NCBI RefSeq assembly: GCF_003755185.1
Contig: NZ_RKIC01000014.1
Span: 186,001 to 250,000 of the forward strand
Length of the DNA stretch: 64,000 nucleotides
Direction of reading: 5' to 3'
DNA from: Frigoribacterium sp. PhB24
GTDB lineage: Bacteria; Actinomycetota; Actinomycetes; Actinomycetales; Microbacteriaceae
Shown here: piece after piece, positions 2,291-63,203 of the stretch
How positions within the stretch are numbered: position 1 is the stretch's first letter
Layout: the number at the start of each line of letters is the position of its first letter
Translations under genes and position numbers: made by a program
The notes under the pieces: model-generated
What the model was told of the DNA's origin: nothing
Database searches by the model: none
Seen by the model: the letters and a program-made list of their open reading frames with translations, nothing else

Positions 2291-3253
2291 TCAGCCGACC
2301 CGCGCCTCCTGGGGACGGCCGTCGGCCGGAGGCGCGCTGGGGACGAGCGGAACGCCCCGCGTCGTGACGAGACCGGAGCGCCGGGCCGCCCGCAGCACGA
2401 GCCACACGTAGAGCGGCGTCGAGACCACCGTCACCGCGAGGGCGAGGGGGCTGCCGTCGCTCGACTCGACACCCGCGAAGGGCGCCGACAGCAGGAAGAG
2501 CACGGTGTTGTTGAGCACGTGCGCGACGATGGCCGCCTCGAGCCCGCCCGTACGCCAGGTCAGGTAGGCGGCCGCCACCCCGAACACGGCGACGTCGAGC
2601 ATGCCCCACGCGTTGTAGTCGTGCCCGAACGCGAACCCCACCGTGGGAAGCACGATGGCCGCGATCGGGTAGCGCAGCCACGAACCGATCGTCTGCATGG
2701 CCAGGCCACGGAACGCGTACTCCTCGGCCGTCGCCTGGAACGGCGTGACCACGAGGATGACGACGACCGCCCAGACGAGGGTGTCCGCCGGCGTGGTGAC
2801 CGGCCCGCTGCCGATCGGTTCACCCGTGAGCGGGGGCACCACGACGTAGCTGAGCCCGACCGTCAGGGCCATGAAGGCGAGCCCCGGCACGACGCACCGC
2901 ACGAGCCACCGCCACCGCAGCCGCCCCGCGACGCTCGAGAGGCCGCCGACCGCACCGGGGCCGACGATCAGGGCGCCCAGCATGATCGCCGGCAGCATGA
3001 CCGCGATCGAGGCGAGGGTCGTGAGGAGCACGAGCGGGTCGGCGGCCGCCAGCGCGTCGCCCTCGATGCCGCGCTGCAGTCGTTGGGCGGCTGCGGTGCC
3101 GCCGACGGCCGTGGTCGCCCCGAGGATGCCCACGTAGACCACGATCGACGCGAGCAGGTACGTGACCACCGCCACGACGGCCGCGAGCAGCGGTTTCCAC
3201 CACCGGTACGAGGGAAGTGAGCGGAACAGGCGGTGGTAGGCGAACGTCGTCAC
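2291..3253 (-). CDS. CPBP family intramembrane glutamic endopeptidase
   Basis: A 320-residue polytopic membrane protein of the CAAX protease/bacteriocin-processing (Abi) family. The catalytic signatures are visible: EEYAFR at residues 177-182, an F-x-x-x-H segment ending at His211, and HVLNN at 245-249. About eight hydrophobic segments are predicted. Substrates of most bacterial members are unknown, so no specific role is claimed. The start is GTG with TACGCT 6 nt upstream (3260-3265 on the minus sense), again a leaderless pattern. The C-terminus is encoded by a copy of the dispersed GAGGCGCGG motif (residues EARVG), which looks like an added tail. Confidence 0.88.
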   Translation of the reverse strand: MTTFAYHRLFRSLPSYRWWKPLLAAVVAVVTYLLASIVVYVGILGATTAVGGTAAAQRLQRGIEGDALAAADPLVLLTTLASIAVMLPAIMLGALIVGPGAVGGLSSVAGRLRWRWLVRCVVPGLAFMALTVGLSYVVVPPLTGEPIGSGPVTTPADTLVWAVVVILVVTPFQATAEEYAFRGLAMQTIGSWLRYPIAAIVLPTVGFAFGHDYNAWGMLDVAVFGVAAAYLTWRTGGLEAAIVAHVLNNTVLFLLSAPFAGVESSDGSPLALAVTVVSTPLYVWLVLRAARRSGLVTTRGVPLVPSAPPADGRPQEARVG

Positions 3254-3302
3254 GCGACGAGCGTACGGGAGCCCCGGCCGGGCTCGGCCTCCCGGCCCGG
3301 GG

Positions 3303-3366
3303 TCGCACCACGAACTGGACGTCGCACCACGAGGTTCCGTGGTGCGACGTCCAGACGGTGGTGCGA
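3303..3366. terminator. Nested long hairpin, family A (terminator-like)
   Basis: The inner arms TGGACGTCGCACCACG (3316-3331) and its exact complement (3338-3353) pair perfectly over 16 bp around a 6-nt loop. Outer arms TCGCACCAC (3303-3311) and GTGGTGCGA (3358-3366) extend the structure. It lies just past the stop of the 5'-nucleotidase gene, as expected of a transcription terminator. The same plan recurs at 27509-27572 and, less perfectly, at 28324-28389. Confidence 0.7.
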
Positions 3367-3382
3367 GGGTGCCCTCCGAGGA

Positions 3383-5686: not shown

Positions 5687-5850
5687 GGGCGTCGTGCTCC
5701 TGAGAAGGCGGTTCGGGCGTGACGGCACCCCCCGAGAGGGGCACCTGCACACGACCATAAGTTCTCGCTGGGCACTCGACAAGAGTCCGCCGAAGATCGT
5801 CACACGTTGTTTACCGGGCCCGTCGTCGCGGCGTCGACGACCGAGCCTCC

Positions 5851-6270: not shown

Positions 6271-6397
6271 CCGCCGAGCCTGCCAGACCCCGAGCCGAGG
6301 AGGCGCGGCGCCGGTCGCCACCGCCCCGCACCCCTCAGGGGCCTCGCGTTAGGGTGGGTCGTCGTCCGAGCCGCGGTCGACAGGGAGGGGCCCACCC

Positions 6398-7273: not shown

Positions 7274-7275
7274 CG

Positions 7276-8607: not shown

Positions 8608-9078
8608 TCAGGCGGGCCCGGGGTACTGCCGCTCGCCGCCCGTGTCGAACCGCTCGCCCGAGGCGCGCGAGGGCAGCAACGACATGACGAGCAGGGTCAG
8701 CCAGCCGAGCACCGGCACCAGGTAGAAGAGCACGTACCAGGCCGTGAAGCCTCCGTCGTGCAGGCGCCGCGACTGCAGCGCGAGGGTCGGCAGGAAGCTC
8801 ACGACCGACCACAGCACGACGACGACGCCCTGGTGGTCGATGTAGGTCCAATCGCGGTCGTCGCCCCCGGCCCAGGTCGACGTCCCGCCGCTGCCCGTGG
8901 CCCAGGCCTGCAGCGCTCCCTGGAACACGAGCGCGATGACGAACCACCACCAGTATTCGCTGCGGCTCGCCCGCCCGTGGAAGGTGGCGTACTTCCGCCA
9001 GAACCGCACGACCGCGACCTTCGGCGAGGCGCGGTGGTACGGCTGGTCGAGGGGCACGGGGCCTGCGGCTCCGGTCAT
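8608..9078 (-). CDS. DUF805 family membrane protein
   Basis: A 156-residue inner-membrane protein with the DUF805 hallmarks: an aromatic-rich RASRSEYWWWFVI segment near residues 36-48, a central hydrophobic helix, and LQSRRLHDGGFTAWY before two further helices. Function is unknown for the family. The ATG at 9078 follows GCAGGAG at normal spacing. Longer upstream readings lose the family's usual N-terminus. The coding region contains a GAGGCGCGG copy at 9026-9034. Confidence 0.85.
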   Translation of the reverse strand: MTGAAGPVPLDQPYHRASPKVAVVRFWRKYATFHGRASRSEYWWWFVIALVFQGALQAWATGSGGTSTWAGGDDRDWTYIDHQGVVVVLWSVVSFLPTLALQSRRLHDGGFTAWYVLFYLVPVLGWLTLLVMSLLPSRASGERFDTGGERQYPGPA

Positions 9079-9235: not shown

Positions 9236-9490
9236 ATGAGCATCGGCGGCGGAATCGCCTTGATCGTGATCGGCGCGGTCCTCGCGTTCGCTCTCGACTT
9301 CCAGGTCGCAGGCATCAACATCCAGCTGATCGGCTACATCCTCATCGCGGCCGGAGTGGTCGTGACCATCATCGGCATCGCCTTCGCGTCGCGTCGACGC
9401 TCGACGGTCTCCACGACCCGCAGCGCCGTCGACCCGGCCACGGGCGAGCGCGTCGAGCGTCGCTCGACCGACAGCGACCCGCTGGTCTGA
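9236..9490 (+). CDS. DUF6458-like small membrane protein
   Basis: An 84-residue protein with two closely spaced hydrophobic helices (about residues 3-21 and 29-50), then a short basic and Ser/Thr-rich cytoplasmic tail. The MSIGGGIALIVIGAVLAFA start resembles the DUF6458 proteins common in actinobacteria. A GAAGGAG ribosome site precedes the ATG. It ends just before the palindromic terminator at 9522. Function is not known. Confidence 0.8.
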   Translation: MSIGGGIALIVIGAVLAFALDFQVAGINIQLIGYILIAAGVVVTIIGIAFASRRRSTVSTTRSAVDPATGERVERRSTDSDPLV

Positions 9491-9521
9491 CCCGCGGGGT
9501 CGCATGCGACCCGTGGACGCA

Positions 9522-9553
9522 GGAGGCGCGGTGCCGGCTGGCACCGCGCCTCC
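9522..9553. terminator. Perfect 14-bp hairpin built from an inverted pair of the dispersed 9-mer
   Basis: GGAGGCGCGGTGCC (9522-9535), loop GGCT, then the exact complement (9540-9553). It sits between convergent genes and would serve both strands. Each arm contains GAGGCGCGG, the repeat described in the findings. Confidence 0.82.
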
Positions 9554-9574
9554 CGTGCGTCCGGGGTCGGGCGA

Positions 9575-11509
9575 CTAGAGCTGGACGCCGTCCTGTGCGG
9601 ACGTCGCACGGTGGCGACGACGCAGCACGAGGGCGGCACCGGTGCCCGCGAGCAGCAGCGCGAGCAGCAGGGCGGGCAGCGCGTCGGAACCGGTGAACGC
9701 GAGAGGGCCGCGTCCGGAACCCGCCGTACCCGCGCCTCCTGCGCTCGTGCCGTCACCGGGCACCGCGGCGGGCGGCGTCGTCGGTGCCGGGGTGACCGCA
9801 CCCTCGACGACGGTGACCGTGGCGGCCAGCGTCGCGCCGCTCTGCGTGCCGGTCAGCGTGATCGTGTAGCTGCCGGGCGCGGTGGGGGCGGTCACCGTGT
9901 AGGTCGCGACGCCGTCGATCACGTCGGCGATGCCGAGGTCGGTCACCGTGCCGTCGACGTCGAGCGTGCCCGTGACCTGGCGGTCGCCCGCGAGACCGGC
10001 GGTGCTGACCGGGAAGTCGGCGCCGGGGGCGACCTCGGTCGGAGCCGAGATCGTCGCGTCGGTGCTGAGGCCGTCGAGGTCGCGGTCGAGCTGCAACGCG
10101 TACACGATGGTGAAGAAGTTGTCGGTCTGGTCGATCAGTCCGACGACGTTCGCGGCGCCGGGGCCGTAGCCCGCGACGCGCAGCTGCGTGCCGGTGTGCT
10201 GCTGCGAGCCACCGGCCGCGGCCGTACCGTAGGCGATCTTCATCGTGGTGCCGTCGACCGTCGTCAGCGCGGTGCTGAGCGTGGCGGGCGGCGTCGAGTC
10301 GACGATCTGGCTGGTGTGGGCGTGGTCCGCCGTGACGATGACCATCGTGTTCCCGTCGGCCTTCGCGAAGGCGAGGGCGGACTGGACGGCCTCGTCGAGG
10401 TCGAGCACCTCACCGATCTGACCGCAGGCATCGGCGCTGTGGTCGCGCTTGTCGATCGAGGCACCCTCGACCTGCAGGAAGAAGCCCTGGTCACCCGTGT
10501 CGAGCAGGTCGATCGACGTCTCGGTCAGCGATCGCAGCGAGAGGTCGGCGCCCAGGCGGGCCGGGTTCGGCTGGCAGGTCTGCGGGGCCAGGTCGGCTCC
10601 ACCCACGGTCGCCGTCGTCGCCGCGTAGCGGGTCGGGAAGTTGCCGTCGGTGAAGGTGCCGAGCACGGGCTGTGCCTGGTCGGCGGCCGTCAGGGCGTCG
10701 AGGCCGGCGGCGTCACGCACGACCTGGTAGCCGCGGTCCTTCGCCTGTGAGAACAGGGTGTCGCCCTGCCACTGGCCGGCGCGGGCCGACTGGCCGAACG
10801 AGGCCGCGCCTCCCCCGAGGGTCAGGTCGGCGCGGGTGCCGATGATCTGCTCGCTGATCGAGCCGAGGCCGCCCTGGTCGAGCGCGTCGGCGCCGCACTG
10901 CGTGACGCTGTCCGGGCCGTAGCAGCTGCGGGCGGCGACGTGCGCGGCCTGCACGGCCGGGGTGGCGTCCTGCAGTTCGGCGGTCGACACGTTGCCGGTC
11001 TTCTTGCCGTTGGCCTTGGCGATCTCGAGCAGGGTGTCCTGCGGGACGCCGTCGACGTCGACCGAGATGGCGTTGTCGTAGGTCTTCGTGCCGGTGGCCC
11101 AGGCCGAGCCGGTCGCGGCGGAGTCGGGCACGTAGTCGGGCTTGCCCTTGTTCGCGCCGTCCTTGTAGACCGAGTACGTCGTGTACTGGCCGGTCAGGGG
11201 CAGGGCGTCGATGCCGGGCAGCGTTCCGCCGGCACCGTAGGCGTAGTTGCGCGCCGAGGTGATCTCACTGTCGCCCATGCCGTCACCGATCAGCAGGATG
11301 ACGTTCTTGGCGGGTCCGGCCTCCACCGAGTCGAGCAGCAGCTGCGTGCTGTCGTCGATGCTGCGTGCCGCGCCGCCGTTCTGGGCGACGTCCGCGGGGG
11401 TGGCCGCGAAGGCGGCGACGGGGCTGAGGGCGAGGGCTGCGGCGGCGGCCGTCGCGACGACCCCCGTCGTCAGGGCCGCACGCCGGCGGTTCGGGGTGTT
11501 CTTCGACAC
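9575..11509 (-). CDS. Cell-wall-anchored alkaline phosphatase (PhoA family)
   Basis: A 644-residue secreted phosphomonoesterase. A signal peptide spans about residues 1-36 (NRRR, then an Ala-rich core ending AFA). The metal site begins with LIGDGMGD (73-80), and the nucleophile is Ser130 in the PDSAATGSA motif. VTADHAHTS and the HTGTQL segment supply later zinc ligands. After residue 490 come an Ig-like or calcium-binding-like region, then LAFTG (603-607), a Leu/Ala helix and RRRHR, the sortase signal. Translation starts at GTG with CAGGAG upstream. It is the second phosphatase of this architecture in the window, pointing to phosphate scavenging at the wall. No clear Pho box was seen. Confidence 0.92.
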
Positions 11510-11731: not shown

Positions 11732-14700
11732 TCAGCCGACCGTCGAGCGCAGCACGGACGACCCGTCGGGACGGCGTCGCACCTCGACGCGGTCGGCGAT
11801 GCGCTGCTTGAGCTCGTCGACGTGGCTGACGATGCCGATCACGCGGCCCGAGGCGCTCAGCCGACCGAGCTCGCTCATGACGGCGTCGAGGGTGTCGGGA
11901 TCGAGCGAGCCGAACCCCTCGTCGACGAACAGGGTGCCGAGCTCGAGCCCACCGGCCTCGGCCTGCACGACGTCGGCGAGTCCGAGGGCGAGGCTGAGCG
12001 AGGCGTAGAAGGTCTCGCCACCCGAGAAGCTGCCGGGGTCGCGGGTGGTGTCGGTGGTCGCGTCGCGGATGACGAGCGAGAGCCCGGTCTTGCGCGAGCG
12101 CGATCCGACCTCGCGTTCGTCGGACGCGGCGAGTTCGTACCGCCCGCTCGACATGACCGACAACCGCACGTTCGCCGCCGCCACGACCTCGTCGAACCGC
12201 CGCAGCAGAACGTAGGTGCCGAGCGTCACGCCCTTGACGTTCTCCCCGGTCGAGGCGCTGGCGAGGTTCGCCATGCGCACCACCGCCCGGGCGTGCTCGA
12301 CGGCGGCGTCGGCCACGGCCGTCACGGCCTCGAGGGCGGTCAAGGCCTGGCGCGACCGCTCGGCCCGGTCGCCGGCGCGCGTCGCCTGGTCGGTGACCTC
12401 GTCCAGCTCGGCCTCGACCAGGTCGAGGGCCTCGACGGCCGACTCGACGTCCGCCGCCTCGTCGCCGGTCAGCACGGCCACCTCGGCCTCGGCGAGCCCG
12501 GCCGCGACGATCGCCCGTTCGCGTTCGTGGGCCGAGACCCGCGATTCGAGGGCTGCCAGGTCAGCTGCCTCGAGGGCGGCGTCCGCGACCTGGTCGACGT
12601 CGTCGAAGCCGCTGCGCTCGAGGGCGGCGGCGAGCTCGGCGCGGCGTCCGACCGCCGCGTCGGCCGCCACCGTGGCGGCGTCGAGAAGGGTCAGGAGGCG
12701 CGTGTCGCGGTCGACGCCCTCGCCCACCGTCGCGGCGAGCTCGCCGATCGTCGGGGCGCGGCCGTCGAGCAGTCGCGCGATCTCGGCCTCGTCGTCGAGC
12801 AGCGCGCGCCGGTCGGCGGCGATGCGCTCTCGGGTGGTGGCGGCCCGTTCGCGGAGGTCGTCGAGCTCGGCGCGCAGCCGGTCGACCTCGAGGTCGTGCG
12901 CCACGAGGCCCGCGTCGGCCGCCGCGAGGGCGACGCGGGCCCGGCCGGCCTCGGCGACGCGCGCGGCCGACCGCGCCCGCTCGGTCTCGACGTCGTCGCG
13001 GGTCAGGTCTCCCAGCGCGCGCCGGGCCTCGGCGACGCGTCCCTCGGCGGTCGCGTGGCGGGCGGCGGACTCACGCTGACGTGTCTCGGCCGCCCGTGCC
13101 GCCGACGACGCGGCCTCGACCTGGTCGTCGGTGGGGTGTTCGACACCGGGCGACGCCGGCGCCGGGTGCTCTCGCGAGCCGCACACGGGACACGGGTCGC
13201 CGAGGACCAGGCCGGCGGCGAGCTGACCCGCCATGCCCTCGATCTGTCGTCGACGCAGGCCCGCCTCGTCGTCGAGGGCCCGGAGGGCCGCCGCCGAGTC
13301 GTCGCTCAGTCGCGCGGACGCCGCGTCGACGGCACGGCCGAGGGCGTCGAGGTCGTCGAGGTCACGCAGCCGTGCCCGCGCCTCGGCCGTCGCCTGCTCG
13401 GCGGCCGCGAGGTCGGTCGACGCGTCGGCCAGGGCCTGGCGCTCGACGACGAGCGACGCCCGGACGGCGGGAGCCGCGACGAGGCGGTCGTCGAGCTCAC
13501 GGCGCCGCTCGTCGGCGTCGACGAGGGACCGTTCGGCCGCCTCGAGGGCTGCCCGACGACCGGGCAGGGCTCGTTCGGTCCGGGCCGCCTCGGTCAGCAG
13601 GGCGACTTCGGAGAGCCGGGCATCGCGGCGCGCGACGACGTCCGCCCGCCTCAGAGCCTCGTTCGCTCCGACCGCCGCGGCGGCCTCGCCGTCCGAGACG
13701 ACCCGGCCGGCCTCGTCCAGGCGTTGCACCGCGTCGCGCTCGACCTCGGCCGCTCGCGCGACCGCGGTGAGGGCGTCGGTCACCGTCGCAGCCCGCGTCG
13801 CAGCGTCGACGCGCCTGCCGACCGCGGCGATCTCGGCGTCGTTCTCGTGGACGAGTGCCTGCCGCGCGATCAGGTCGGCCCGCCGGTCGAGCGCGACCCG
13901 GAGCGCCCGCGCCCGGTCGAGTGACCGTCGCGCGGTGTCTCGGGCCTCGGCCGCGCGCGAGCGTCGAGCCGACGCGTCGGCGGCCTCTGCCTCGAGGGCC
14001 CTGAGCACGGTGGCCGCGCGATCCGTCGACAGGGCCTGGTCGAGGGTCTCGGACTCGAGCGCACTGGCCTCGAGGAGTCTCGCCCGGGCCAGCTCGATGT
14101 CGCGGTCGGCCGCGTCGACTGCCGCGTTGGCGACCTTGCGCCGCTCGACGAGTTCGGCCGTGGTGCGCTCGTAGATCTCGGTGCCGAACAACGATTGCAG
14201 GACTTCTTTTCGCTTCTCGCCGGTCGAGCGGAGGAAGGCGGCGAACTCGCCCTGGGGCAGGACGACAGTCTGCACGAACTGCTGGCGTGTGAGCCCGAGG
14301 ATGCGCGAGACCTCGGCACCGGCTTCTTGGGTGCTGATCGAGACGATGTCGCCGTCGACGGCGTCGGGTGACGAGAGGCGCCACAGCTTGGCGGTCGCGT
14401 TCGCCGGAGTCGTGCCCGTACCGCGCGCCTTGGGTCGCCGGTACGCGGGGGTTCGCCGGATGCGGTGGACCCCCGCGCCGTTCTCGAAGACGAGCTCGAC
14501 GAAGGGTTCGACCTCGGGCGCGGCGTGGTGGCTCCGCAGCCGGTCGGGCGTCGACGCCGAGCCGGCGAGCCCGCCGTACAGGGCGAACACGATCGCGTCG
14601 ATGATCGTCGACTTGCCCGAGCCGGTCGGGCCCTCGAGCAGGAAGGTGCCCGAGGCCCCGAGCGCCGCGAAGTCGATGCTGTGCTCGCCCGCGTAGGGCC

Positions 14701-16020: not shown

Positions 16021-16076
16021 CCGCGCCTCCTCGGGTCCGGCACCGCGCCTCCTCGGGTCCGCGCCGCGCCTCGCGG
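16021..16076. repeat. Tandem direct repeat of about 21 nt containing the dispersed 9-mer
   Basis: The unit CCGCGCCTCCTCGGGTCCG is repeated at 16021 and 16043 with a degenerate third copy at 16064. Each unit starts with CCGCGCCTC, the complement of GAGGCGCGG. It occupies the divergent sbcD/peptidase spacer. Confidence 0.75.
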
Positions 16077-16152: not shown

Positions 16153-17325
16153 GTGAGCCACGACCCCCTGCAGCCCGACCAGGTCACCGCCGTGCGCCGT
16201 GAGGTCGAGGCGCGCCTCGACGCGATGGTGGCCGACCTGACGACCTACGCGAGCCTCGAGACGCCGTCCGACGACGTCGACCTGCTCGAGGCGGGGCTCC
16301 GCTGGATCGAGGAGTGGCTCGGCGACACGGTCGGTCCACCGGCCGACCGCCGGGTGCACGTCGTCGAGGGCTTCGGCGACACGGTCACCCTCGACTACCC
16401 GTCGCCGTCGGGGTCGACCGAGTGGGTGTCGGCCCTGTGCCATTACGACACCGTGTGGTCCGAGGGCACGCTCGCCGACTGGCCCGTGACCATCGAGGGC
16501 GACCGCATGACCGGCCCCGGCGTCTTCGACATGAAGTCCGGGCTGATCCAGCTCGGCAACGCGCTGGCGATCGGCGACCGCCTGGGGCTGCCCCGCCCGA
16601 ACGTCCGCCTGCTGCTCAACGGCGACGAGGAGGTCGGGAGCATCGCGTCGCGCGAGGCGATCGAGCGAGAGGTCGGACGAGGAGGCGCGGTGTTCGTCTT
16701 CGAGTCCGCCGCCGACGGCGCCGTCAAGACCGCCCGCAAGGGCGTCGGCATCTACGAGGTGGAGGCCTTCGGGGTCGAGGTGCACGCCGGGCTCCACCCG
16801 CGATCGGGTGCGAGCGCCGTCGACGAGATCGCCCGCGCCGTCATGACGCTGCACGCCGCCGCCGACTTCGAGGCGGGCACCTCGCTCAACGTGGGAGTGC
16901 TGCAGGGCGGCACCCGCACCAACGTCAAGGCCGGCTACGCGCGGGCGATGGTCGACGTGCGCGTCACCTCGTCCGCCGAGGCCGAACGCATCGAGCGGGT
17001 CTTCGCGGCCCTCACGCCCCACGACCCGGCGGCGTCTCTGAAGGTCACGGGAGGCTGGAACCGTCCACCGATGGAACGCTCGGCCGCGACCGGTGCGCTG
17101 TACGAACGCGCGGCCCGGGTCGCCGCGTCGCTCGGCTTCGAGCTGCGCGAGGTGTCGGTCGGCGGCGCCAGCGACGGCAACTTCGCCGCCGCGCTCGGGC
17201 TGGCCGTGCTCGACGGGGTCGGCGGCGTCGGCGGCGGAGCGCACGCCCGCCACGAGTGGATCAGCGTGCGCGGAATGGTCGAGCGCACCGAGTTCGTCAG
17301 CGCCCTGCTCGCCGACCTCGCCTGA
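16153..17325 (+). CDS. M20 family metallopeptidase (glutamate carboxypeptidase-like)
   Basis: A 390-residue zinc peptidase of the CPG2/ArgE/DapE clan. Metal ligands and catalytic residues appear in order: CHYDTVW, GVFDMKSG, NGDEEVGS, and near the C-terminus GGASDGNF and GGAHARHEW. The dimerisation (lid) domain lies between the two halves, with a typical HAGLHPRSG strand. The substrate is probably an N-acyl or glutamyl amino acid, but this cannot be settled. The GTG start gives VSHDPLQPDQ. An in-frame ATG at 16114 would add 13 poorly conserved residues and cannot be excluded. The coding region contains GAGGCGCGG at 16682. Confidence 0.85.
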   Translation: MSHDPLQPDQVTAVRREVEARLDAMVADLTTYASLETPSDDVDLLEAGLRWIEEWLGDTVGPPADRRVHVVEGFGDTVTLDYPSPSGSTEWVSALCHYDTVWSEGTLADWPVTIEGDRMTGPGVFDMKSGLIQLGNALAIGDRLGLPRPNVRLLLNGDEEVGSIASREAIEREVGRGGAVFVFESAADGAVKTARKGVGIYEVEAFGVEVHAGLHPRSGASAVDEIARAVMTLHAAADFEAGTSLNVGVLQGGTRTNVKAGYARAMVDVRVTSSAEAERIERVFAALTPHDPAASLKVTGGWNRPPMERSAATGALYERAARVAASLGFELREVSVGGASDGNFAAALGLAVLDGVGGVGGGAHARHEWISVRGMVERTEFVSALLADLA

Positions 17326-18485: not shown

Positions 18486-18594
18486 CCGTCGATGCTCGGC
18501 CGTCGATCGGACCCGGCCGCGCCTCCAGAGCCTTCCTGTGGACGACCGCCCGCCTACCGCATCATGTGGACGAGACGACCTGTGTGCGCCGAGA

Positions 18595-19564: not shown

Positions 19565-21231
19565 CAGAACAGCCCGCCCGGCTGGGCGGCCGCACCCGCC
19601 AGGGCGTCGGGCGCGACGATGCCCAACTGGCGCACCTCGTCCGGCGTCAACGAGGGGAGGCGCGTGGCCAGGTCGACGAACCGCTCGACCTCGGCGTCCG
19701 GCAGCACTCCCTCGGCCAGCGTGCGGAACTTGCGCACGTAGTCCTCGCGTCCGAAGGGCCGCGCCCCCAGCGGGTGGGCGTCGGCGACGGCGATCTCGTC
19801 GACGAGGGTCGTGCCGTCGACGAACTCGACCTCGATGCGACCGCCGAAGGCCTTCTCGGCAGGATCGGTCGAATGGTAGCGGGCCGTCCAGGCGGGGTCC
19901 TCGGCCGTGGTGATGAGCTGCCACAGCTCGACCGTGTCGGGCCGCTGCGCCCGGGCCGGGGCGTAGCTGCGCTCGTGGTGCCATTCGCCGTCCTGCAGGG
20001 CGACGGCCACGATGTACGGGATCGAGTGGTCGAGCGTCTCACGGCTGGCCGTGGGGTCGTACTTCTGCGGGTCGCCGGCGCCCGAACCGATCACGACGTG
20101 CGTGTGGTGACTGGTGTGCAGCACGATGCCGCGCACCTGCGACGGGTCACGCAGCGCCGGGTGCGAACGACCGAGCCGGCGGGCCAGGTCGATCCACGCC
20201 TGGGCCTGGTACTCGGCCGAGTGCTCTTTCGTGTAGGTGTCGAGGATGCCCCGCTTCGGCGCGCCCGGTGTCGGCAGGGGCACGTCGTAGGACGCCCCGG
20301 GCCCGTCGAGCAACCAGGCGATCACGCCGTCCTCTCCCTCGTAGATCGGGGCGGGACTGCCCTGCCCGCGCATCGCCCGGTCGACGGCCTCGACCGCGGC
20401 CTTGCCGGCGTGGGCGGGGGCGTAGGCCTTCCACGACGAGATCGCGCCCTTGCGCGACTGCCGCGTGGCGGTCGTCGTGTGCAATGCCTGGCCGATCGCC
20501 TGGTGCACCACGTCGGTCGGGAGCCCGAGCATCGTGCCGAGGCCGGCCGCGACCGACGGGCCGAGGTGGGCGACGTGGTCGATCTTGTGGGCGTGCAGGC
20601 TGATCGCGCGGACGAGGTCGACCTGCACCTCGTAGCCGGTGACGATCCCGCGCAGCAGGGCCGCCCCGTCGAGTCCACGGTGCTGCGCCACGGCCACGAG
20701 GGCCGGGATGTTGTCGCCGGGGTGCGAGTACTCCGCCGCGAGGAACGTGTCGTGGAAGTCGAGCTCGCGCACGGCGACCCCGTTCGACCAGGCGGCCCAC
20801 TCGGGCGAGACGGGGTGCTCGGGCGCGACGCCCGTGACCTGCGAGCCCGCGCCTCCGGAGGTCGGCGGGTGCGCGAGCGCCTGGTCTCGCGCGACGGCGA
20901 CCGGTGCGCGCAGCAGCGACGCGGCCGAGACCGCGGCGTTGTCGATCAGGCGGTTGATCACCATCTCGGTCACGTCGTCGTCGACGGGTGCGTCGTCGGT
21001 GGCGAGCGCGGCGAGGCGCCAGGCGAGTTCGTCCTCGCGGGCCAGCAGCTCGTCGCTGCGGTGCACCCGCACCGTGTGCACGACGAGGTCGGCGGCCGGG
21101 GTGCCGGGCCCGTCCGGCCCGCCCGGGGCCCCGGACGAGGAGGCGCGGGTCGCGTCGCCCCCGCCGCTCGCCTCGGTCGTCGCCCCGGCGTCGTGTGCGT
21201 GCTCGGACCCCTGCTCGTGCTGCGTGCCCAT
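19564..21231 (-). CDS. prpD: 2-methylcitrate dehydratase
   Basis: A 555-residue MmgE/PrpD family enzyme that dehydrates 2-methylcitrate. Family segments visible are [40 protein letters not shown] (helical domain with catalytic Asp/His), [18 protein letters not shown] and [21 protein letters not shown]. The first 50 residues are a Gly/Ala/Pro-rich extension containing a GAGGCGCGG copy and look disordered. The ATG at 21231 follows GAGAGGGTGG. The expected 2-methylcitrate synthase gene (prpC) is not next to it; downstream of prpB lies only a terminator. Confidence 0.93.
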
Positions 21232-27446: not shown

Positions 27447-27508
27447 CCCGCGCCTCCCCGGAGGCGCAGGTCCCTCACGCCCGCCCCGCGCCTCCCCGCG
27501 GGCTCGCA

Positions 27509-34952: not shown

Positions 34953-35247
34953 GGGTCCGCGTGTGGCCACGGGCCGCGCGGGGACGCCGCCGGTCACAGG
35001 GGGAGAACCACCGGCAGCGGGTCGAGCAGTTCCGAGGACGGTACCGCCGTCGAGTTGCTCGCGTTTCAAGATACTCTTCGAAAGAGGAGACTGCAAGGGG
35101 GCGGTGGCGGTCGCACCGGGTGACGGGTGATTCGAAGCTCGTACAACTCACTCGACGAGGTATCGTGGGGGTCCGTGGCGTCCGTCGCCGCGCCTCCTCG
35201 TCTTCGCTCCGTCCTCGCGTCGCCGTCCCGCCAGCAGAGAGCCCACC
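34953..35247. other. Intergenic region upstream of marR
   Basis: No gene is supported here. It is less GC-rich than its surroundings. An imperfect palindrome TTTCAAG-ATACT-CTTCGAAA (35064-35083) is a candidate MarR-type operator, and the word TTCGAA recurs at 35131. A dispersed 9-mer copy is at 35188-35196. A promoter for marR probably lies near 35060-35170, but I cannot place its boxes with confidence. Confidence 0.5.
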
Positions 35248-42155: not shown

Positions 42156-42338
42156 GGTGCTCCGGTGGTGAGAGGGAGAGCGAGGGAGGCTGGGCGGACG
42201 ACGTCCACCGCGCCTCCATTGTCACCAGCCTCTCTGGGAACTGGCGGGGGCTTCTCCTGCGCTGTGCAGAACGTCGCGAGGCGGCCGAGTGGGGGCGACC
42301 CGACGCGACACGAACCGAGGAGGCGCGGGTCGCTATCC

Positions 42339-49002: not shown

Positions 49003-49043
49003 GTCGGGTTCGGCCGGGGTGACCGCCCGTCCGGAGGCGCGGG

Positions 49044-50572: not shown

Positions 50573-52033
50573 ATGTGCGGCATCGTCGGTCTCGTCGCGC
50601 ACGAGCCAGCAAATCAACTCGTCTACGACTCGCTCCTCCTGTTGCAGCACCGGGGGCAGGACAGCACCGGCATCGCCACCGCCGAGGGCGGCATCTTCCA
50701 CGTCCACAAGACCAAGGGGCAGGTGCGCGAGGGCTTCCGCACCCGCGACATGCGTGCCCTGCTCGGCAACATGGGCCTCGGCCACGTGCGGTACGCCACC
50801 AAGGGCGCGGCCAGCAACGAGCAAGAGGCGCAGCCGTTCTACGTGAACGCTCCCTACGGCATCGTGCTGATCCACAACGGCAACCTGACGAACACGCGAG
50901 AGCTCACGAGCGAGCTGTTCCACGTCGACCGTCGGCACCTCAACACGAACAGTGACACCGAGCTGCTGGTCAACGTGCTCGCGCACGAACTGCAAGAGCA
51001 GGTGAACGGCAGCGAGCTCGATCCCGAGCAGATCTTCGCCGCGGTCACCCGCGTGCACGACCGCGTGCAGGGCTCGTACGCGGCGATCGCGATGATCGCC
51101 GGCCACGGCCTTCTGGCGTTCCGCGACCCGTTCGGCATCCGCCCGCTGGTGCTCGGTCGCCGCCTGGCCGCCGACGGCGTCCGCGAAGAGTGGATCACCG
51201 CCTCCGAGTCCCTCGTTCTCGAGTCCGGCGGCTACGAGATCGTCCGCGACGTCGCCCCGGGCGAGGCCGTCTTCATCTCGCTCGACGGCCGCATGGTGTC
51301 GAAGCAGTGCCACGCCAGCCCGCGCCTCATCCCCTGCTCGTTCGAGTACGTCTACCTGGCCCGTCCCGACTCGATCATGAACGGCATCTCGGTCTACGAC
51401 GCCCGCCTGCGCCTCGGCAACCGGCTGGCCGACACGATCGCCGCGCACTCGCCGATCGGCGACATCGACGTGGTCATGCCGATCCCCGACTCCTCGCGTC
51501 CCGCGGCCATGCAGGTCGCCCAGAAGCTCGGCATCGAGTACCGCGAGGGCTTCTACAAGAACCGCTACGTCGGCCGCACCTTCATCATGCCGGGCCAGGC
51601 CGAGCGCAAGCGGTCGGTGCGCCAGAAGCTCAACGCCATGTCGAGCGAGTTCAAGGGCAAGAACATCCTGATCGTCGACGACTCGATCGTCCGCGGCACG
51701 ACCTCGCGCGAGATCGTCGAGATGGCCCGGGCCGCCGGCGCGAACAAGGTGACGTTCACCTCGGCCGCTCCCCCGGTGCGCTTCCCCCACGTGTACGGCA
51801 TCAACATGCCGTCCCGGCACGAGCTGATCGCCCACGACCGCAAGATCCCCGAGATCGCCCGCGAGCTGGGTGCCGACCACCTCATCTACCAAGAGGTCGC
51901 CGACATGCAGTCCGCCATCACCGAGGGCAGTGACGTCACCGAACTCGAGATGAGCTGCTTCACGGGCGACTACGTCACCGGGACGGTCAGCCCCGAGTAC
52001 CTCGCCTGGGTCGAGGCCAACCAGCTCAGCTGA
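50573..52033 (+). CDS. purF: Amidophosphoribosyltransferase
   Basis: A 486-residue enzyme catalysing the first committed step of purine synthesis, PRPP to phosphoribosylamine. The mature catalytic Cys follows Met directly (MCGIVGLV), so no propeptide is present. The glutaminase domain is residues 1 to about 240, and the phosphoribosyltransferase domain contains the PRPP motif ILIVDDSIVRGTT. A TAGACT box (50526-50531) gives a 35-nt leader with a CTGGAG site. Unlike cyanobacterial or Bacillus forms, no extended insert is seen. Confidence 0.96.
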   Translation: MCGIVGLVAHEPANQLVYDSLLLLQHRGQDSTGIATAEGGIFHVHKTKGQVREGFRTRDMRALLGNMGLGHVRYATKGAASNEQEAQPFYVNAPYGIVLIHNGNLTNTRELTSELFHVDRRHLNTNSDTELLVNVLAHELQEQVNGSELDPEQIFAAVTRVHDRVQGSYAAIAMIAGHGLLAFRDPFGIRPLVLGRRLAADGVREEWITASESLVLESGGYEIVRDVAPGEAVFISLDGRMVSKQCHASPRLIPCSFEYVYLARPDSIMNGISVYDARLRLGNRLADTIAAHSPIGDIDVVMPIPDSSRPAAMQVAQKLGIEYREGFYKNRYVGRTFIMPGQAERKRSVRQKLNAMSSEFKGKNILIVDDSIVRGTTSREIVEMARAAGANKVTFTSAAPPVRFPHVYGINMPSRHELIAHDRKIPEIARELGADHLIYQEVADMQSAITEGSDVTELEMSCFTGDYVTGTVSPEYLAWVEANQLS

Positions 52034-52124
52034 GCCGACGGGCCGGGCCACCACCCGCGCCTCGCCCCCGCTTCCACCCGTCGGGGGAGGCGCGGTGTCG
52101 GTGTGCGTCCCTAGGCTGGGGGCC

Positions 52125-52925
52125 ATGAGCGACGTCGGCATGCCCCGCCCTGAACCGACCGCGACGCCCCCGGCGTCCGCCGTGCAGATCGCCGGTCTGC
52201 GCAAGGCGTTCGGCGACAAGGTCGCCGTCGACGGCATCGACCTGACCGTGCCGACGGGCTCCTTCTTCGGCCTCGTCGGCCCGAACGGCGCCGGCAAGAC
52301 GACCACGCTCTCGATGGCGACCGGGCTGCTCCGTCCCGACGCGGGCAGCATCGCGGTGCTCGGCGTCGACGTCTGGTCCGACCCGACGCACGCCAAGTCG
52401 CTCGTCGGCGTCCTCAGCGACGGCATCTCGCTCTTCGACCGCCTCACCGGCGAGCAGCTCGTCACCTACCACGGCCTCCTCAACGGCATGAGCCGCGAGA
52501 CGACGGCGCAGCGGGTCGGCGACCTGCTCGACCTGCTCGACCTGCGATCGGCCGGCGGCACGCTCGTCGTCGATTACTCCGCGGGCATGACCAAGAAGGT
52601 CGCGCTCGCCTGCGCGCTGGTCCACGCACCGCGCCTCCTCGTCCTCGACGAACCGTTCGAGTCGGTCGACCCGATCTCGGCCGCGAACATCCGCGACATC
52701 CTGCACGGCTACACGCAGAACGGCGGCACGGTCATCGTGTCGAGCCACTCGATGGACCTCGTGCAGCGCATGTGCGACCACGTCGCCGTCATCGCCTCCG
52801 GTCGGGTGCTCGCCGCCGGCACGACCGACGACGTGCGCGCCGGCTCCACCCTCGAAGACCGGTTCGTCGAACTCGTCGGCGGTCGGCAGCACAACGAGGG
52901 GCCGTCGTGGTTGCGCACCTCCTGA
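52125..52925 (+). CDS. ABC transporter ATP-binding protein
   Basis: A 266-residue ATPase. Walker A is GPNGAGKTTT, the signature region is SAGMTKKVALA (a diverged LSGGQ), and Walker B is LLVLDEPFESVD. It is paired with the next gene's membrane subunit. The ATG is preceded by TAGGCT 7 nt upstream (52112-52117), a clear leaderless pattern. An upstream in-frame start at 52095 was rejected for that reason. The substrate is unknown; the export type is inferred from the polytopic partner and lack of a binding protein. Confidence 0.9.
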   Translation: MSDVGMPRPEPTATPPASAVQIAGLRKAFGDKVAVDGIDLTVPTGSFFGLVGPNGAGKTTTLSMATGLLRPDAGSIAVLGVDVWSDPTHAKSLVGVLSDGISLFDRLTGEQLVTYHGLLNGMSRETTAQRVGDLLDLLDLRSAGGTLVVDYSAGMTKKVALACALVHAPRLLVLDEPFESVDPISAANIRDILHGYTQNGGTVIVSSHSMDLVQRMCDHVAVIASGRVLAAGTTDDVRAGSTLEDRFVELVGGRQHNEGPSWLRTS

Positions 52926-54511: not shown

Positions 54512-54928
54512 TCAGCCGCGGTCGGAGTCGCCGTCGGTCACCTGACGAGGCGCGGGCTCGGCCTCGTCGACGGGCACCTCGAGCCGTTCGCGTTCGACCT
54601 GGACGCGCTTCGCGCCCCGGCTGGTGACCCGTTCGGCGACGATCGCCGCGACGCAGCCGACGGCCCCGCCGATGGTGAGCCCCCAGAGAGAGATGTACCC
54701 GTAGGTCTGCGCGACGCCCTCGCCCGAGTCGAACGGGAAGAGCGAGGTGACGACGAGCGACACGACCACACCGAGCGCCGCGCCCATGATCAAGAAGACG
54801 GGCACCTTGGGCGCCCGACGCACCGTGACCTCGTCGCGTTCGACGATCGACTCGGCGACGGGCGCGGGCGCGGCCGCGGGCTCGACGACGGGCTCGGGTC
54901 GCTGCTGGTCGTCGGGTGCGTTCGTCAC
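54512..54928 (-). CDS. Unidentified two-helix membrane protein
   Basis: A 138-residue protein with an Ala/Pro/Glu-rich N-terminal 40 residues, two hydrophobic helices (about residues 43-64 and 78-98) and a basic, Glu-rich tail. The family is not recognised. The start GTG (VTNAPDDQQRPEP) has the weak -10-like word GATGAT 6 nt upstream. A GAGGCGCGG copy lies near the C-terminus at 54547. Confidence 0.72.
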   Translation of the reverse strand: MTNAPDDQQRPEPVVEPAAAPAPVAESIVERDEVTVRRAPKVPVFLIMGAALGVVVSLVVTSLFPFDSGEGVAQTYGYISLWGLTIGGAVGCVAAIVAERVTSRGAKRVQVERERLEVPVDEAEPAPRQVTDGDSDRG

Positions 54929-55083: not shown

Positions 55084-55125
55084 CGGCGCAGCCGCGCTCC
55101 AGCCCGGACACCGAGGAGGCGCGGG

Positions 55126-55506
55126 TCAGCCCCGCTGCCAGGCGATCGGCACGTAGCCGGTCAGGTCCGCCCTGCTGCCGGAGGCCGACACGAGCGCCCC
55201 GGCCCGCGCCTCCTGCCAGCTGAGGTCGCCGGTGGCGAGTCGCACGAAGGTGGCGGCGTCGGTCTCGACGACGTTGGGCGGCGTGCCGCGGGTGTGGCTG
55301 AGCCCCTCGCGGAACTGCACGGCGCCGAACGGTGGCACGCGGACCTCGACCGTGGCCCCGGGTTCGCCGTCGGCGAGCACCTGCAGCAGCCAACGGACGG
55401 CCATGGCGGTCACCGGCCGCGGCGCGGTCTCGTCGGCGGCGAGCGCCGCCCGCACCTCGCCCACGGCGGCCGATCCCGCCGTGTCGTCGATCCGTGCCCT
55501 GGCCAT
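55126..55506 (-). CDS. Sterol-carrier-like (SCP2-type) small protein
   Basis: A 126-residue protein. RPVTAMAVRWLLQVLADGEPGATVEVRVPPFGAVQF and the ATFVRLATGDLSWQEARAGALVSASGSRADLTGYVPI end match the actinobacterial 'bacterial SCP ortholog' type, often encoded beside purD. The ligand is unknown. The ATG has TAGCGT 6 nt upstream, on the minus strand near 55513-55518, a leaderless layout. A dispersed 9-mer sits at 55204 and another just past the stop (55116). Confidence 0.82.
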   Translation of the reverse strand: MARARIDDTAGSAAVGEVRAALAADETAPRPVTAMAVRWLLQVLADGEPGATVEVRVPPFGAVQFREGLSHTRGTPPNVVETDAATFVRLATGDLSWQEARAGALVSASGSRADLTGYVPIAWQRG

Positions 55507-58046: not shown

Positions 58047-58994
58047 ATGACCGACACCTCCGCGACCGACGACACCCGCGCCTCCTCGTCCCCCGAACGC
58101 GGCCCGCGGGCGCAGGGCGTCGGCACCACCGACCTGCTCGCCGCCGACACCGGCATGGGAGCCGTCACGCTGCGGGTCGCCGACCTCGACGCGATGACCG
58201 CGTACTACCGCGACGCCGTCACCCTGACGGTGCTGACCGCCGAGCCCGCGGCGGGTCGCGTCGTGCTCGGACGTGGCGCCACCCCGATCGTCATCCTCGA
58301 GCACGCGCCCGAGCTGAGGCACGCCGGGCCGCGCGAGGCCGGCCTCTTCCACACCGCGATCCTGTTCGAGACCGAGGCCGACCTCGCCGCCGCCGTCTAC
58401 AGCGTCGCCACCCGTCACGCCGGCACCTTCACCGGCAGCGCCGACCACCTCGTCAGCAAGGCCTTCTACTTCACCGACCCCGAGGGCAACGGCATCGAGC
58501 TCTACTGGGACCGCCGCCGCAGCGAGTGGTCGTGGACCCACGGGCAGGTGGACATGGCGACCCTCGCCCTCGACCCGAACGCGTTCGTGCAGCAGAACGT
58601 CAGCGAGGAGGCGCTGGCCGGTGCGGCATCCCGTCCCGCCTCGGTCGGCCACGTGCACCTGAGCGTGGGCGACGTCGAGTCGGCCCACCGGTTCTACGTC
58701 GAGCAGCTGGGATTCGAGACGACGACCCGGTTCGGGCCCCAGGCGCTGTTCGTCAGCGCCGGCGGCTACCACCACCACATGGCCATGAACACCTGGACCA
58801 GCGCCGGGGCCGTGCGACGCGGGCTCGCCCTGGGCCTCGGCCTGGTGCGCATCGAGGTGCCGACCACCGACGACCTGGGTGCCCTCGGCGAGCGCCTCGG
58901 CCACCACGGTGTCGCCATCCGCGACGACGGACGTGTGCTCGGGTTCGACGATCCCTGGAACAACCGGATCCAGGTGACCGTCCGCCCGAGCTGA
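58047..58994 (+). CDS. Ring-cleaving extradiol dioxygenase-like VOC protein (CatE type)
   Basis: A 315-residue protein with two VOC modules (about residues 35-160 and 175-310). Metal ligands fit FHTAILFE, HVHLSVGD and FDDPWNNRIQV. The layout is that of CatE-type catechol 2,3-dioxygenases of Bacillus; the true aromatic substrate is not known. Residues 1-25 are a Thr/Ala/Ser tail with a 9-mer copy. GAGGGCAGCC precedes the ATG. Confidence 0.85.
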   Translation: MTDTSATDDTRASSSPERGPRAQGVGTTDLLAADTGMGAVTLRVADLDAMTAYYRDAVTLTVLTAEPAAGRVVLGRGATPIVILEHAPELRHAGPREAGLFHTAILFETEADLAAAVYSVATRHAGTFTGSADHLVSKAFYFTDPEGNGIELYWDRRRSEWSWTHGQVDMATLALDPNAFVQQNVSEEALAGAASRPASVGHVHLSVGDVESAHRFYVEQLGFETTTRFGPQALFVSAGGYHHHMAMNTWTSAGAVRRGLALGLGLVRIEVPTTDDLGALGERLGHHGVAIRDDGRVLGFDDPWNNRIQVTVRPS

Positions 58995-59019
58995 CCACCG
59001 GCACCGCTAACGTCGAGGC

Positions 59020-59589: not shown

Positions 59590-59605
59590 GACCCCCTGGA
59601 CGCCG

Positions 59606-59644
59606 AGGAGGCGCGGTGACCGACGAACGGTCACCGCGCCTCCT
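59606..59644. terminator. Perfect 17-bp hairpin built from an inverted pair of the dispersed 9-mer
   Basis: AGGAGGCGCGGTGACCG (59606-59622), loop ACGAA, then the exact complement (59628-59644). It separates the convergent NodA-like and catalase genes. Each arm contains GAGGCGCGG. Confidence 0.87.
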
Positions 59645-59665
59645 GCGGTCTGACGCGGCTGTCGG

Positions 59666-61168: not shown

Positions 61169-61223
61169 GTGTCCTCTTTCGTTCGTGGTTCGTCGTCGTG
61201 TGAGATCAGGGTGCGAGGCCCGC

Positions 61224-61724
61224 TCAGGGAGCGGCCACCGCCGCGGGGGCGTCGGACGAGGAGGCGCGGACCGGCTCGTCGCCCGCCGCCGCCAGGGCCT
61301 CGGCCGCCCGACAGGCCGGGCAGAGGCCCCAGAAGGTCACCTCGGCGGTCTGCACGAGGTACCCCGAGTCGTGCGACGGGGTGAGGCAGGGGGCGTGACC
61401 GACGACGCAGTCGACGTCGGCGACCGAGCCGCACACCCCGCAGACCACGTGGTGGTGGTTGTCGCCCGTCCGCAGCTCGTACAGGGCGGCCGAGCCCGCG
61501 GGCTCGATGCGGCGCACCAGTCCCGCTCCGGTCAGCGCGTTCAGCACGCCGTACACCGCCTGGACCGACGTCCCGGGCAGCTCGAGGGCCACCCGCGCGA
61601 AGACCTGCTCGGCGGCCGCGTGCGGTGCCGGCTCGAGGGCGCGCAACACGGCGAGCCGGGGCTCGGTCACGCGCAGCCCGGCGGAGCGCAGGGCTTCACG
61701 GGGATCGTCGATCGGATCGGTCAT
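61224..61724 (-). CDS. furA: Fur-family peroxide-type regulator (FurA/CatR-like)
   Basis: A 166-residue repressor. The winged helix is residues about 8-85 ([14 protein letters not shown] ... [33 protein letters not shown]). The metal site is [13 protein letters not shown], then CPACRAAE, a CxxC pair giving the structural zinc. It sits directly before katA. The Ala/Ser/Pro-rich tail contains a GAGGCGCGG copy. An upstream in-frame ATG at 61757 would start inside the operator and was rejected. Confidence 0.93.
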
Positions 61725-61742
61725 GTGACCAGTGAACCACTC

Positions 61743-61759
61743 TTTTGATCGGATCAAAA
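61743..61759. promoter_or_regulatory. Fur/PerR-type operator before furA
   Basis: TTTTGATCGGATCAAAA is a perfect inverted repeat of 8 bp around one G. It lies 19 bp upstream of the furA ATG in the divergent spacer, matching the autoregulatory boxes of furA-katA loci. It stands out as an AT-rich island. Confidence 0.83.
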
Positions 61760-61853
61760 CAATTGAGGGCTGCTCGGAGGCTCTTCTCGGCTTCGGCCAC
61801 CCGGCCTGTGGACAACCACCCCGGGACGCCAGGGGATCGCTAGCGTCGTCGAC

Positions 61854-63203
61854 ATGAGCACCACCGCCACGACACCGTCGTCAGCCACCCCCGTCGTCCC
61901 CCCGGGGCGAGACCTCGTGGTCGACCTCGCCCGCGTCTTCTGCGTCCTGCTGGTCGTGGCGATCCACGTGATGATGGTCGGCGTCGCCGTCGACGCGACG
62001 GGCGCCGTCGTGGTGAACCGTCCCCTCCAAGAGCAGCCCTGGTTCGCCCTCTCGACGTGGGCCGGCCAGATCATGCCGCTCTTCTTCGTGGTCGGCGGGT
62101 TCGCCAGCGCCACGGCCTGGGCCGGCGCGCGCCGCCGCGGCGCCGACGCCGGCGACTTCGTCCGCGGCCGACTGCTGAGGCTCGCACGCCCGGCGAGCGC
62201 GGTCTTCGCCGTCCTCGCGATCGCCCTCGCCGTGGCGACCCTGCTCGGCGTCGATCCCGAGCTGCGCGACGTCGTGGCGACCGGCGTGGGCTCGCCGTTC
62301 TGGTTCCTCGCCGCGTACGGCATCACGCAGGTGCTCGTGCCGGTCATGGCCCGGCTGCACGCGACCCGTCCCTGGGCGACCCTCGTGGTCCTGGTCGTCG
62401 CGGCCGTCCTGGTCGACGCGGTGCGGTACGGCACCGGCGTCACGGCGGTCGGCCTCCTCAACCTGGCCTTCGTGTGGTTGTTCGTGCAACAGCTCGGCTT
62501 CGCGTACGCCGACGGGCTGTTCCGTCGGACCCCGCGGGTCGTGCTGCTCGTCGTCGCCGTCGTGGCCTACGCGGCCCTGGTCCCGCTGACGACGGTCGGG
62601 CCGTGGTCCGACGACATGCTGAGCAATCTCAACCCGCCGACCGTGCCGCTCATGGTGCTCGGGGTGGCCCAGATCTGCCTGCTCTCGCTCCTGCACCCCG
62701 CCCTGTCCCGCCTCATGACCACGCCCGCCGCCCGCGCTGTCGTGTTCGCGATCGGCAGCAGGGGCATGACCATCTACCTGTGGCACCTGCCGCTGCTGAT
62801 CGCCCTGTTCGGGGTTCTGCTGATCGTGGGCGGACCGCTCCCCCAGCCCTCGACGGCCGTCTGGTGGTGGACTCGCCTGCCGATCTGGGCCCTCGTCATC
62901 GGGCTGACCTGTCTCGTGTCGCTCGCGACGGCACGGTTCGAACTGCCACCGCGAGCGCTGCCCGAGGGCCGGCGCCGCGCCTCCTGGTGGCTGATCGGTG
63001 CGGCAGCCGTGCTCGCGATCGGCCCGCCGTTCGACGTGATGCACGAGGGCCTCGACCTGCGCAACGCGGTCGCGGGGGCGATCTGCCTGCCCCTGGCCGT
63101 CTGGCTGCTCGGCCGATCGCGACCGGTGCACGCGAGCTCTCAGCCGGCCGAGACGGCCCCGGCGGGCGGCCTCGCGACGGCCGACGAGGCGCGAGAGGGG
63201 TAG
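61854..63203 (+). CDS. Acyltransferase family membrane protein (OafA-like)
   Basis: A 449-residue polytopic protein with about ten hydrophobic helices. It begins RDLVVDLARVFCVLLVVAIHVMMVGV, with the conserved R...D..R pattern and His of the acyltransferase-3 family; IYLWHLPLLI is the later conserved His region. The acceptor (cell-wall sugar or lipid) is unknown. TAGCGT 7 nt upstream (61841-61846) suggests leaderless initiation. A GAGGCGCGG copy is at 62975. Confidence 0.86.
   Translation: MSTTATTPSSATPVVPPGRDLVVDLARVFCVLLVVAIHVMMVGVAVDATGAVVVNRPLQEQPWFALSTWAGQIMPLFFVVGGFASATAWAGARRRGADAGDFVRGRLLRLARPASAVFAVLAIALAVATLLGVDPELRDVVATGVGSPFWFLAAYGITQVLVPVMARLHATRPWATLVVLVVAAVLVDAVRYGTGVTAVGLLNLAFVWLFVQQLGFAYADGLFRRTPRVVLLVVAVVAYAALVPLTTVGPWSDDMLSNLNPPTVPLMVLGVAQICLLSLLHPALSRLMTTPAARAVVFAIGSRGMTIYLWHLPLLIALFGVLLIVGGPLPQPSTAVWWWTRLPIWALVIGLTCLVSLATARFELPPRALPEGRRRASWWLIGAAAVLAIGPPFDVMHEGLDLRNAVAGAICLPLAVWLLGRSRPVHASSQPAETAPAGGLATADEAREG

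Follow-up and report, generated by a model that had tools for sequence, protein, structure and literature searches.

A dispersed eleven-base word in Frigoribacterium as a candidate DNA uptake sequence, with one-base spellings in Curtobacterium-like genomes

The 64,000 nucleotides of Frigoribacterium sp. PhB24 analysed here (the window) are scattered with copies of a short word, (C/G)AGGAGGCGCGG, which, judged from its pattern in this and related genomes, is probably a DNA uptake sequence of Frigoribacterium. The proposal builds on the observed abundance of the word, its neutrality towards strand, its location, its inverted pairs, its conservation, the way near relatives differ at its sites, its lineage-specific spellings and the presence of uptake machinery, and most of the testable genomic hallmarks of uptake sequences are found in Frigoribacterium. 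That sequence-specific uptake arose here independently for a third time, and for the first time in a Gram-positive phylum, with spellings one base apart in a neighbouring genus and a receptor to be found, is a proposition for which we consider the chances to be even. A preliminary description of the window had likened the word to the known uptake sequences, a likeness that has gained strength from the lineage spellings, from conservation at orthologous sites and from the competence genes, while the uptake itself is what we infer from these.

The 9-mer GAGGCGCGG occurs 52 times in the window, 23 times on the plus and 29 times on the minus strand, while dinucleotide shuffles gave a mean of 6.55 (sd 2.28) and none of 100 shuffles reached 52. 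The preliminary description had reported about 50 exact copies, divided 23 to 27 between the strands, with about five expected and most of them extended by a G or T; all 50 positions proved exact, the count of 23 and the order of the expectation hold, and two further copies at 13376 and 51320, both on the minus strand, bring the other count to 29. A G precedes 46 of the 52 copies and a G or T comes next after 36. Longer forms top the word over-representation in the window, with 57 copies of GGAGGCGCG, and with 46 of GGAGGCGCGG where 0.6-0.8 are expected, and there are 29 copies of the 11-mer AGGAGGCGCGG and 17 of GAGGAGGCGCGG (0.1 expected).

The word is not limited to the window. In the whole genome (G000, 3.46 Mb), where the reversed word was counted as a control alongside each form of the motif, there are 1,599 copies of GAGGCGCGG (792 + 807; reversed 157), 1,494 of GGAGGCGCGG (749 + 745, corresponding to 432 per Mb; reversed 52) and 1,033 of AGGAGGCGCGG (525 + 508; reversed 4), so that the excess over the control ranges from about 10-fold for the 9-mer to about 250-fold for the 11-mer. 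In 464 kb of G000 the consensus is (C/G)AGGAGGCGCGG, with the core GGAGGCG and frequently with GTC or TGC after it, and the working unit is AGGAGGCGCGG, about 11 bases. Its positions 2-9 are nearly invariant in G000 (28 one-change copies found, with an expectation of about 27), and some change is allowed at the first base and at the last two; in the complete genome G110 a T often replaces the seventh base as well (24 copies).

When related genomes were aligned to the window (the near relatives G161, G158 and G155, and G162 at 81% identity), with words of the same composition at orthologous sites as control, the 11-mer was found to be intact far more often than the control words. For the three relatives whose aligned part is 91-93% identical, the numbers were 18 of 21 against 93 of 182, 20 of 27 against 96 of 243, and 23 of 27 against 77 of 244. 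In G162, where 10 of the window's 29 exact 11-mers are covered by the alignment, 9 of 10 were intact against 17 of 98 control words (Fisher p = 7e-6). Coding and intergenic copies are conserved alike, the intergenic numbers being small. Following the window sites into the three near relatives gave 122 aligned 10-mers, of which 102 were identical, 17 carried one to three substitutions and three had a gap; 17 of the 20 differences are thus gap-free substitutions, and near-relative copies differ mainly by point change rather than by insertion of a unit.

The location of the copies was determined using our own gene calls, made with a simple codon model and no standard annotator. Of the copies in the window, 33 lie inside genes and 19 between them, in agreement with the earlier estimate of about a third between genes, while intergenic DNA makes up 10.3% of the window (p = 5e-7). 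Over the 464 kb of G000 there are 224 copies, 130 coding and 94 intergenic (34.7 expected, a 2.7-fold excess), and in G110 83 coding and 40 intergenic (15.1 expected). Coding copies are neutral towards the strand of their gene (60 with and 70 against in G000, 45 and 38 in G110) and occupy several reading frames as previously described, with EAR, GGA and RAS among the common peptides. The tendency towards gene ends that had also been proposed is modest; in G000 41 of the 130 coding copies lie in the first and last tenths of genes (p = 0.001), while G110, the other of the two genomes checked, did not show it.

Strands are balanced genome-wide in G000 (749 and 745 copies of GGAGGCGCGG) and, for G110, in 20 evenly spaced 20-kb stretches covering 400 of 3,328 kb, with 58 copies in one orientation and 65 in the other. 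In those 20 stretches no replication polarity was detected, as the best bisection reached 0.593, a value that random strands matched in 23% of trials (p = 0.23). The contig does not start at dnaA, judging by its first open reading frames, and its origin was not located.

Inward-facing inverted pairs, which could fold into stem-loops, number 13 in G000, nine of them adjoining the 3' end of a gene, and four in G110. Two are found in the window, both between convergent genes. The pair at 9522-9553 has its left arm at 9523-9531 (+) and its right arm at 9544-9552 (-), and that at 59607-59643 has its arms at 59608-59616 (+) and 59634-59642 (-); all four arms are intergenic exact matches. Sequence and folding of the plus-strand stretches give perfect hairpins of -60 and -47 kcal/mol, respectively. 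They had been described as perfect terminators (the second as 59606-59644), too strong a term for what are perfect hairpins at gene 3' ends; no T-tract follows in the sequence at either pair, and a terminator scan of 9300-9800, around the first pair, found none.

The remaining copies in the window are exact matches, with relatives identical or gapped where stated. Intergenic copies on the plus strand are situated at 6300-6308, 42320-42328 (gap in G155), 49034-49042, 52087-52095 and 55116-55124, and on the minus strand at 16021-16029, 16043-16051, 16064-16072, 18517-18525, 27448-27456, 27486-27494 (gap in G161 and G155), 27628-27636, 35188-35196, 42208-42216 and 52055-52063, the latter forming an outward pair with 52087. 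The three between 16021 and 16072 form a tandem triple with a spacing of 21-22 bases inside a short intergenic repeat. The coding copies on the plus strand are located at 9026-9034, 16682-16690, 21140-21148, 23842-23850, 24914-24922, 27049-27057, 28038-28046, 28759-28767, 30050-30058, 32491-32499, 34104-34112, 37912-37920, 40606-40614, 46698-46706, 54547-54555 and 61261-61269. Those on the minus strand are at 2300-2308 (within an exact AGGAGGCGCGG that is identical in G161, G158 and G155), 9730-9738, 10804-10812, 13376-13384, 20847-20855, 22418-22426, 28919-28927, 31003-31011, 31147-31155, 31615-31623, 32594-32602, 42678-42686, 51320-51328, 52629-52637, 55204-55212, 58076-58084 and 62975-62983, those starting at 13376 and 51320 being the additional ones. 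The coding copies starting at 16682, 22418, 30050, 31003, 32594, 34104 and 42678 are identical in all four relatives.

All 16 genomes of Frigoribacterium (genus g1) are enriched in AGGAGGCGCGG, with 383-1,239 copies against 4-27 of the reversed word. In a count over 150 genomes of the family, g1, the Curtobacterium-like g32 and, weakly, g55, which is near Leifsonia, were the only genera clearly above the control at counts over 100, and in a survey of 396 genomes of the order, where G000 was the only member of g1, g32 or g55, each of the 395 others has at most 45 copies. The genera were placed by comparison of ComEC, which in G000 is closest to that of Frigoribacterium sp. Leaf8 (85% of amino acids, 87% of nucleotides), in g32 to that of Curtobacterium (74-76% of nucleotides) and in g55 to that of Leifsonia (about 70%). 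GGAGGCGCGG occurs 12 times in the 22-kb Leaf8 locus, where the reversed word is absent, the runners-up among 80 named loci having three, and a LepA tree of 70 of these loci groups Frigoribacterium, Frondihabitans and Curtobacterium (support 87/94); the Frondihabitans locus (21.7 kb) contains no GGAGGCGCGG. In g55 the word is the weak, related TGGAGGCGGT, with 17 copies against none reversed in 240 kb, and no form of the motif is in excess across 11 genomes of ten other genera, sampled by one 20-kb piece each, which is too little sequence to rule out other uptake words.

Some further observations were made in these surveys. In the LepA tree Frigoribacterium sp. CG_9.8 (L114) groups with Glaciihabitans and Homoserinimonas, apart from Leaf8, and its name may be wrong. 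A different dispersed repeat, TCTCGATACGC, occurs six times in 20 kb (0.01 expected) in L046 of G045, which belongs to another genus of the family. In G110 the sequence TTCCTGAAT recurs 16 times in 400 kb (0.06 expected), at L022:7979-8407 and in L017, L019, L020, L023, L024 and L027, in places clustered at distances of tens to 150 bases and in many cases with a partial copy in inverted orientation nearby (CTCAGGA...TTCCTGAAT).

Among 60 Curtobacterium-like genomes the count of CTGGAGGCGCGG ranges from 10 to 479, and a second spelling, KGGAGGCTCGG, with one base of the core changed, is abundant in some of the genomes poor in CTGGAGGCGCGG; its counts are 250-395 in eight of them and 102-105 in a further three, the reversed word giving at most 11. 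At a threshold of at least 100 copies, 21 of the 60 genomes have CTGGAGGCGCGG, 11 have KGGAGGCTCGG, none has both and 28 have neither, making the spellings mutually exclusive (Fisher p = 0.005, Spearman -0.79, statistics that ignore kinship). Since hundreds of scattered copies share a one-base difference, the word would appear to be read by something acting in trans. The nearest neighbour by pilB has the same spelling in 23 of 23 cases, and the spelling therefore looks to be passed down with the species line.

A search for competence and pilus genes in G000 revealed comEA, comEC and dprA together with a type IV pilus cluster consisting of pilB, pilT, pilC, three genes for prepilin-like proteins, a gene for a large pilus-type protein and pilD, followed by pilM and pilO; two large genes preceding the cluster we take to be rpoB and rpoC from their first residues. 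Two of the prepilin-like proteins have a Pfam N-methyl match and the third has the motif alone, while neither the large pilus-type protein nor the gene product at the PilN position (between pilM and pilO) has a Pfam match. Tad/Flp-type genes are also present, so that all the components suggested for a check were found, the Tad system as parts. ComEC was identified in 16 of 16 genomes tested, and 13 of 14 have a full-length PilB-type ATPase, G017 showing only a weaker match. Several of these genomes are without the word, so that the presence of the machinery allows for uptake without being diagnostic of it.

The minor pilins were considered as possible receptors for the word. This part of the cluster is hypervariable, as seen between G000 and the motif-rich G155, where PilB is 99% identical and the minor pilins 38-45%, pilB and pilC being near-identical in these close species while the minor-pilin part is not (L242:15408-19299, L245-L256, L290-L309), as if minor pilins were exchanged or under diversifying pressure. 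In the first four Curtobacterium-like clusters they were seemingly split by spelling, and across the 60 genomes their association with the number of copies was weak (Spearman 0.25, p = 0.058; Fisher p = 0.02). In 24 clusters picked by spelling from the 60 genomes (that of G201 cut at a contig end, and pilB, pilT, pilC and pilA counted in 23), nearest neighbours by minor pilins share the spelling in 20-21 of 24 cases, as close relatives would, and no link to spelling is left after allowing for pilB, pilT and pilC (p 0.98-1.0). With no average link to spelling in the 24 genomes, the type IV minor pilins were set aside provisionally as receptor.

The following mechanism is proposed for the word as an uptake sequence. 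A receptor carried by the competence pilus or situated in the cell envelope would prefer double-stranded DNA bearing the word in either orientation, and such DNA would be drawn to ComEA and ComEC, enter as a single strand and be recombined with help from DprA. A biased uptake of word-bearing DNA from kin would accumulate copies, chiefly via point mutation, and retain them, perhaps assisted by selection for kin recognition; a change in the receptor would let whole lineages shift to a new spelling, and inverted pairs between genes could have been turned into 3' hairpins. Transformability, the receptor, its preference for the word and the drive are all parts that we infer. If the proposal is true, uptake tags would evolve repeatedly, also without a Gram-negative outer membrane as in this actinomycetotal case, Frigoribacterium and some Curtobacterium would be predicted to be naturally transformable and the search for the reader of the word would gain a new approach, the one-base split between related species being a natural experiment on joint change of receptor and word.

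Several observations speak against the word being an uptake sequence. The same machinery occurs in genera without the word, the motif-rich G155 carries a divergent set of minor pilins, and minor-pilin distances show no difference within and between spellings in the 24 clusters (p 0.33-0.41). When copies in the near relatives were followed into the window, seven of 23 differences had a gap and 16 were substitutions, and in G162 gaps weigh more, with three of four and seven of 13 differences, the alignment at this identity being less certain; the sequences around the G162 copies show no unusual similarity. The absence of a surplus of decayed copies is a real tension, since a balance of mutation and drive should leave one, and suggests stronger maintenance than a slow balance of this kind. 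Motif density climbs with the content of guanine and cytosine (GC), though the enrichment over expectation is 10.6-22.4 fold and present in all four GC classes. In the Curtobacterium-like G105 six of the 46 copies are coding and the other 40 intergenic, with the highest density in gaps between tandem and convergent genes, and the copies include 10 inward pairs, eight of which share one 24-base spacing and a longer common flank, and the word of the Curtobacterium-like genomes, of which G105 alone was analysed in this way, may thus be mainly in hairpins with another or an added role. Finally, the literature searched gave no uptake or transformation data for Frigoribacterium. This search covered open-licence papers, where absence does not prove absence from print, and gave no report of natural competence in Frigoribacterium, no uptake sequence for Microbacteriaceae, nothing relevant on natural transformation and competence in Curtobacterium and, among the matches listed, no title on an actinobacterial uptake word, nor any on uptake words when the exact 9-mer GAGGCGCGG was used.

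Two low-GC stretches of G000 lack GGAGGCGCGG over about 15-17 kb (L066 and L070), as expected of foreign DNA, although this is weak evidence because the word is itself GC-rich. The start of contig C4 (L070:1-17500; GC about 0.58-0.66), with genes for CHAT and HEPN/RES proteins and the first GGAGGCGCGG at 17816, has the appearance of foreign or defence DNA, while the low-GC start of contig C2 (L066:1-15000) is metabolic (amino acid permease, SIS and arginase families), with the first at 16185. The starts of contigs C3 and C6 (L068:36-255 and L074:25-119) consist of arrays of G or C homopolymers in runs of 9-19 bases, perhaps an assembly artefact or unresolved repeats.

An alternative that we hold to be unlikely, while still giving it some weight, is that the word is the binding site of a cytoplasmic DNA-binding protein with a chromosome-wide role in organisation, repair, recombination or replication, unconnected with uptake, whose shifting specificity would have produced the spellings. 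Abundance, conservation and a coordinated change of spelling require a reader in trans and not uptake as such, a sharp core without a surplus of decayed copies fits strong selection, and the minor pilins have no average link with spelling. We know of no cytoplasmic-protein system in which strand neutrality and an intergenic excess go together with inverted hairpin pairs and with different spellings in related species, whereas these are reported together for uptake sequences in the part of the Neisseriaceae study available (PMC3630211). It is less probable again that the word is the preferred half of a stem spreading with 3' hairpins, either terminators or RNA-stabilising stems, lone copies being halves or by-products. 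The arrangement in G105 with its 40 of 46 copies intergenic and eight of 10 inward pairs at an equal 24-base spacing, the position of nine of the 13 inward G000 pairs beside the 3' end of a gene and the high stability of the two window hairpins would all fit such an origin, but 130 of the 224 copies in G000 lie inside genes, in both orientations and mostly unpaired, coding copies are as well conserved as intergenic ones, and no T-tract is found at the scanned pair (9300-9800).

The Chi-like or KOPS-like site raised in the preliminary description, i.e. an oriented site for RecBCD/AdnAB or FtsK, would suit a non-palindromic, GC-rich and frequent word but is largely refuted by the lack of polarity in G000 and in the stretches of G110, where no bisection beats chance, and by the intergenic excess, leaving it a very slim prospect. 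Less credible still is a mobile palindrome like the repetitive extragenic palindromic (REP) elements, moved by a REP-associated tyrosine transposase (RAYT); the hairpin pairs and intergenic preference in G105 and the gaps at some sites are in line with it, but a gene with the Y1_Tnp domain (PF01797) was found in none of 12 genomes, many copies are coding and near relatives differ mostly by substitutions. Shine-Dalgarno sites (AGGAGG is contained in the word) or by-products of codon usage, as might be suspected from the common frames encoding EAR, GGA or RAS, are refuted for nearly all copies, since no more than four of the 224 in G000 are correctly oriented within the 25 bases that precede a start, both orientations are used, copies also occur between genes and each of the 395 other genomes of the order has so few. 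The Shine-Dalgarno, Chi/KOPS, REP/RAYT and plain-terminator readings, all of them tested, fit more poorly than an uptake sequence.

Among known dispersed words, HIP1 is a palindromic octamer, unlike the Frigoribacterium word, which differs from its own reverse complement. REP elements and intrinsic terminators resemble it in their hairpin pairs, often at 3' ends, but the Frigoribacterium copies are mostly single and over half coding, no RAYT was found in the 12 genomes, and intrinsic terminators differ by the T-tract that is missing at the scanned pair. The uptake signal sequences (USS) of Pasteurellaceae are flanked by AT-rich tracts, and the Frigoribacterium word, a different one in another phylum, has no such tracts, its flanks being weak. 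It resembles USS in its density, the two USS types having about 200-500 and 500-800 copies per Mb, and in the occurrence of two related spellings between groups, as far as the available part of the source describes them (PMC12616744). The transformation system of Micrococcus luteus, with Flp/Tad pilus, ComEA and ComEC, is matched in Frigoribacterium by actinobacterial com genes and Tad parts, and differs in that a type IV pilus with PilT is present in Frigoribacterium as well, whereas in M. luteus Flp pili stand in place of a comG cluster according to the portion of the review available (PMC6370729); the term 'uptake sequence' does not appear in the accessible part of another M. luteus paper (PMC4322843). 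From the DNA uptake sequences (DUS) of Neisseria, where the receptor is a type IV minor pilin, the system differs in its word, in its phylum (high-GC Gram-positive), in that no ComP-like receptor was found and in that its minor pilins are without an average link to dialect. Dialects, inverted pairs and intragenic copies are described for the DUS of Neisseriaceae in the part of the study available (Frye 2013, PMC3630211), and what the Frigoribacterium word shares with them is a short non-palindromic sequence, here at about one copy per 2 kb, present on both strands and both within and between genes, with inverted pairs and one-base dialects.

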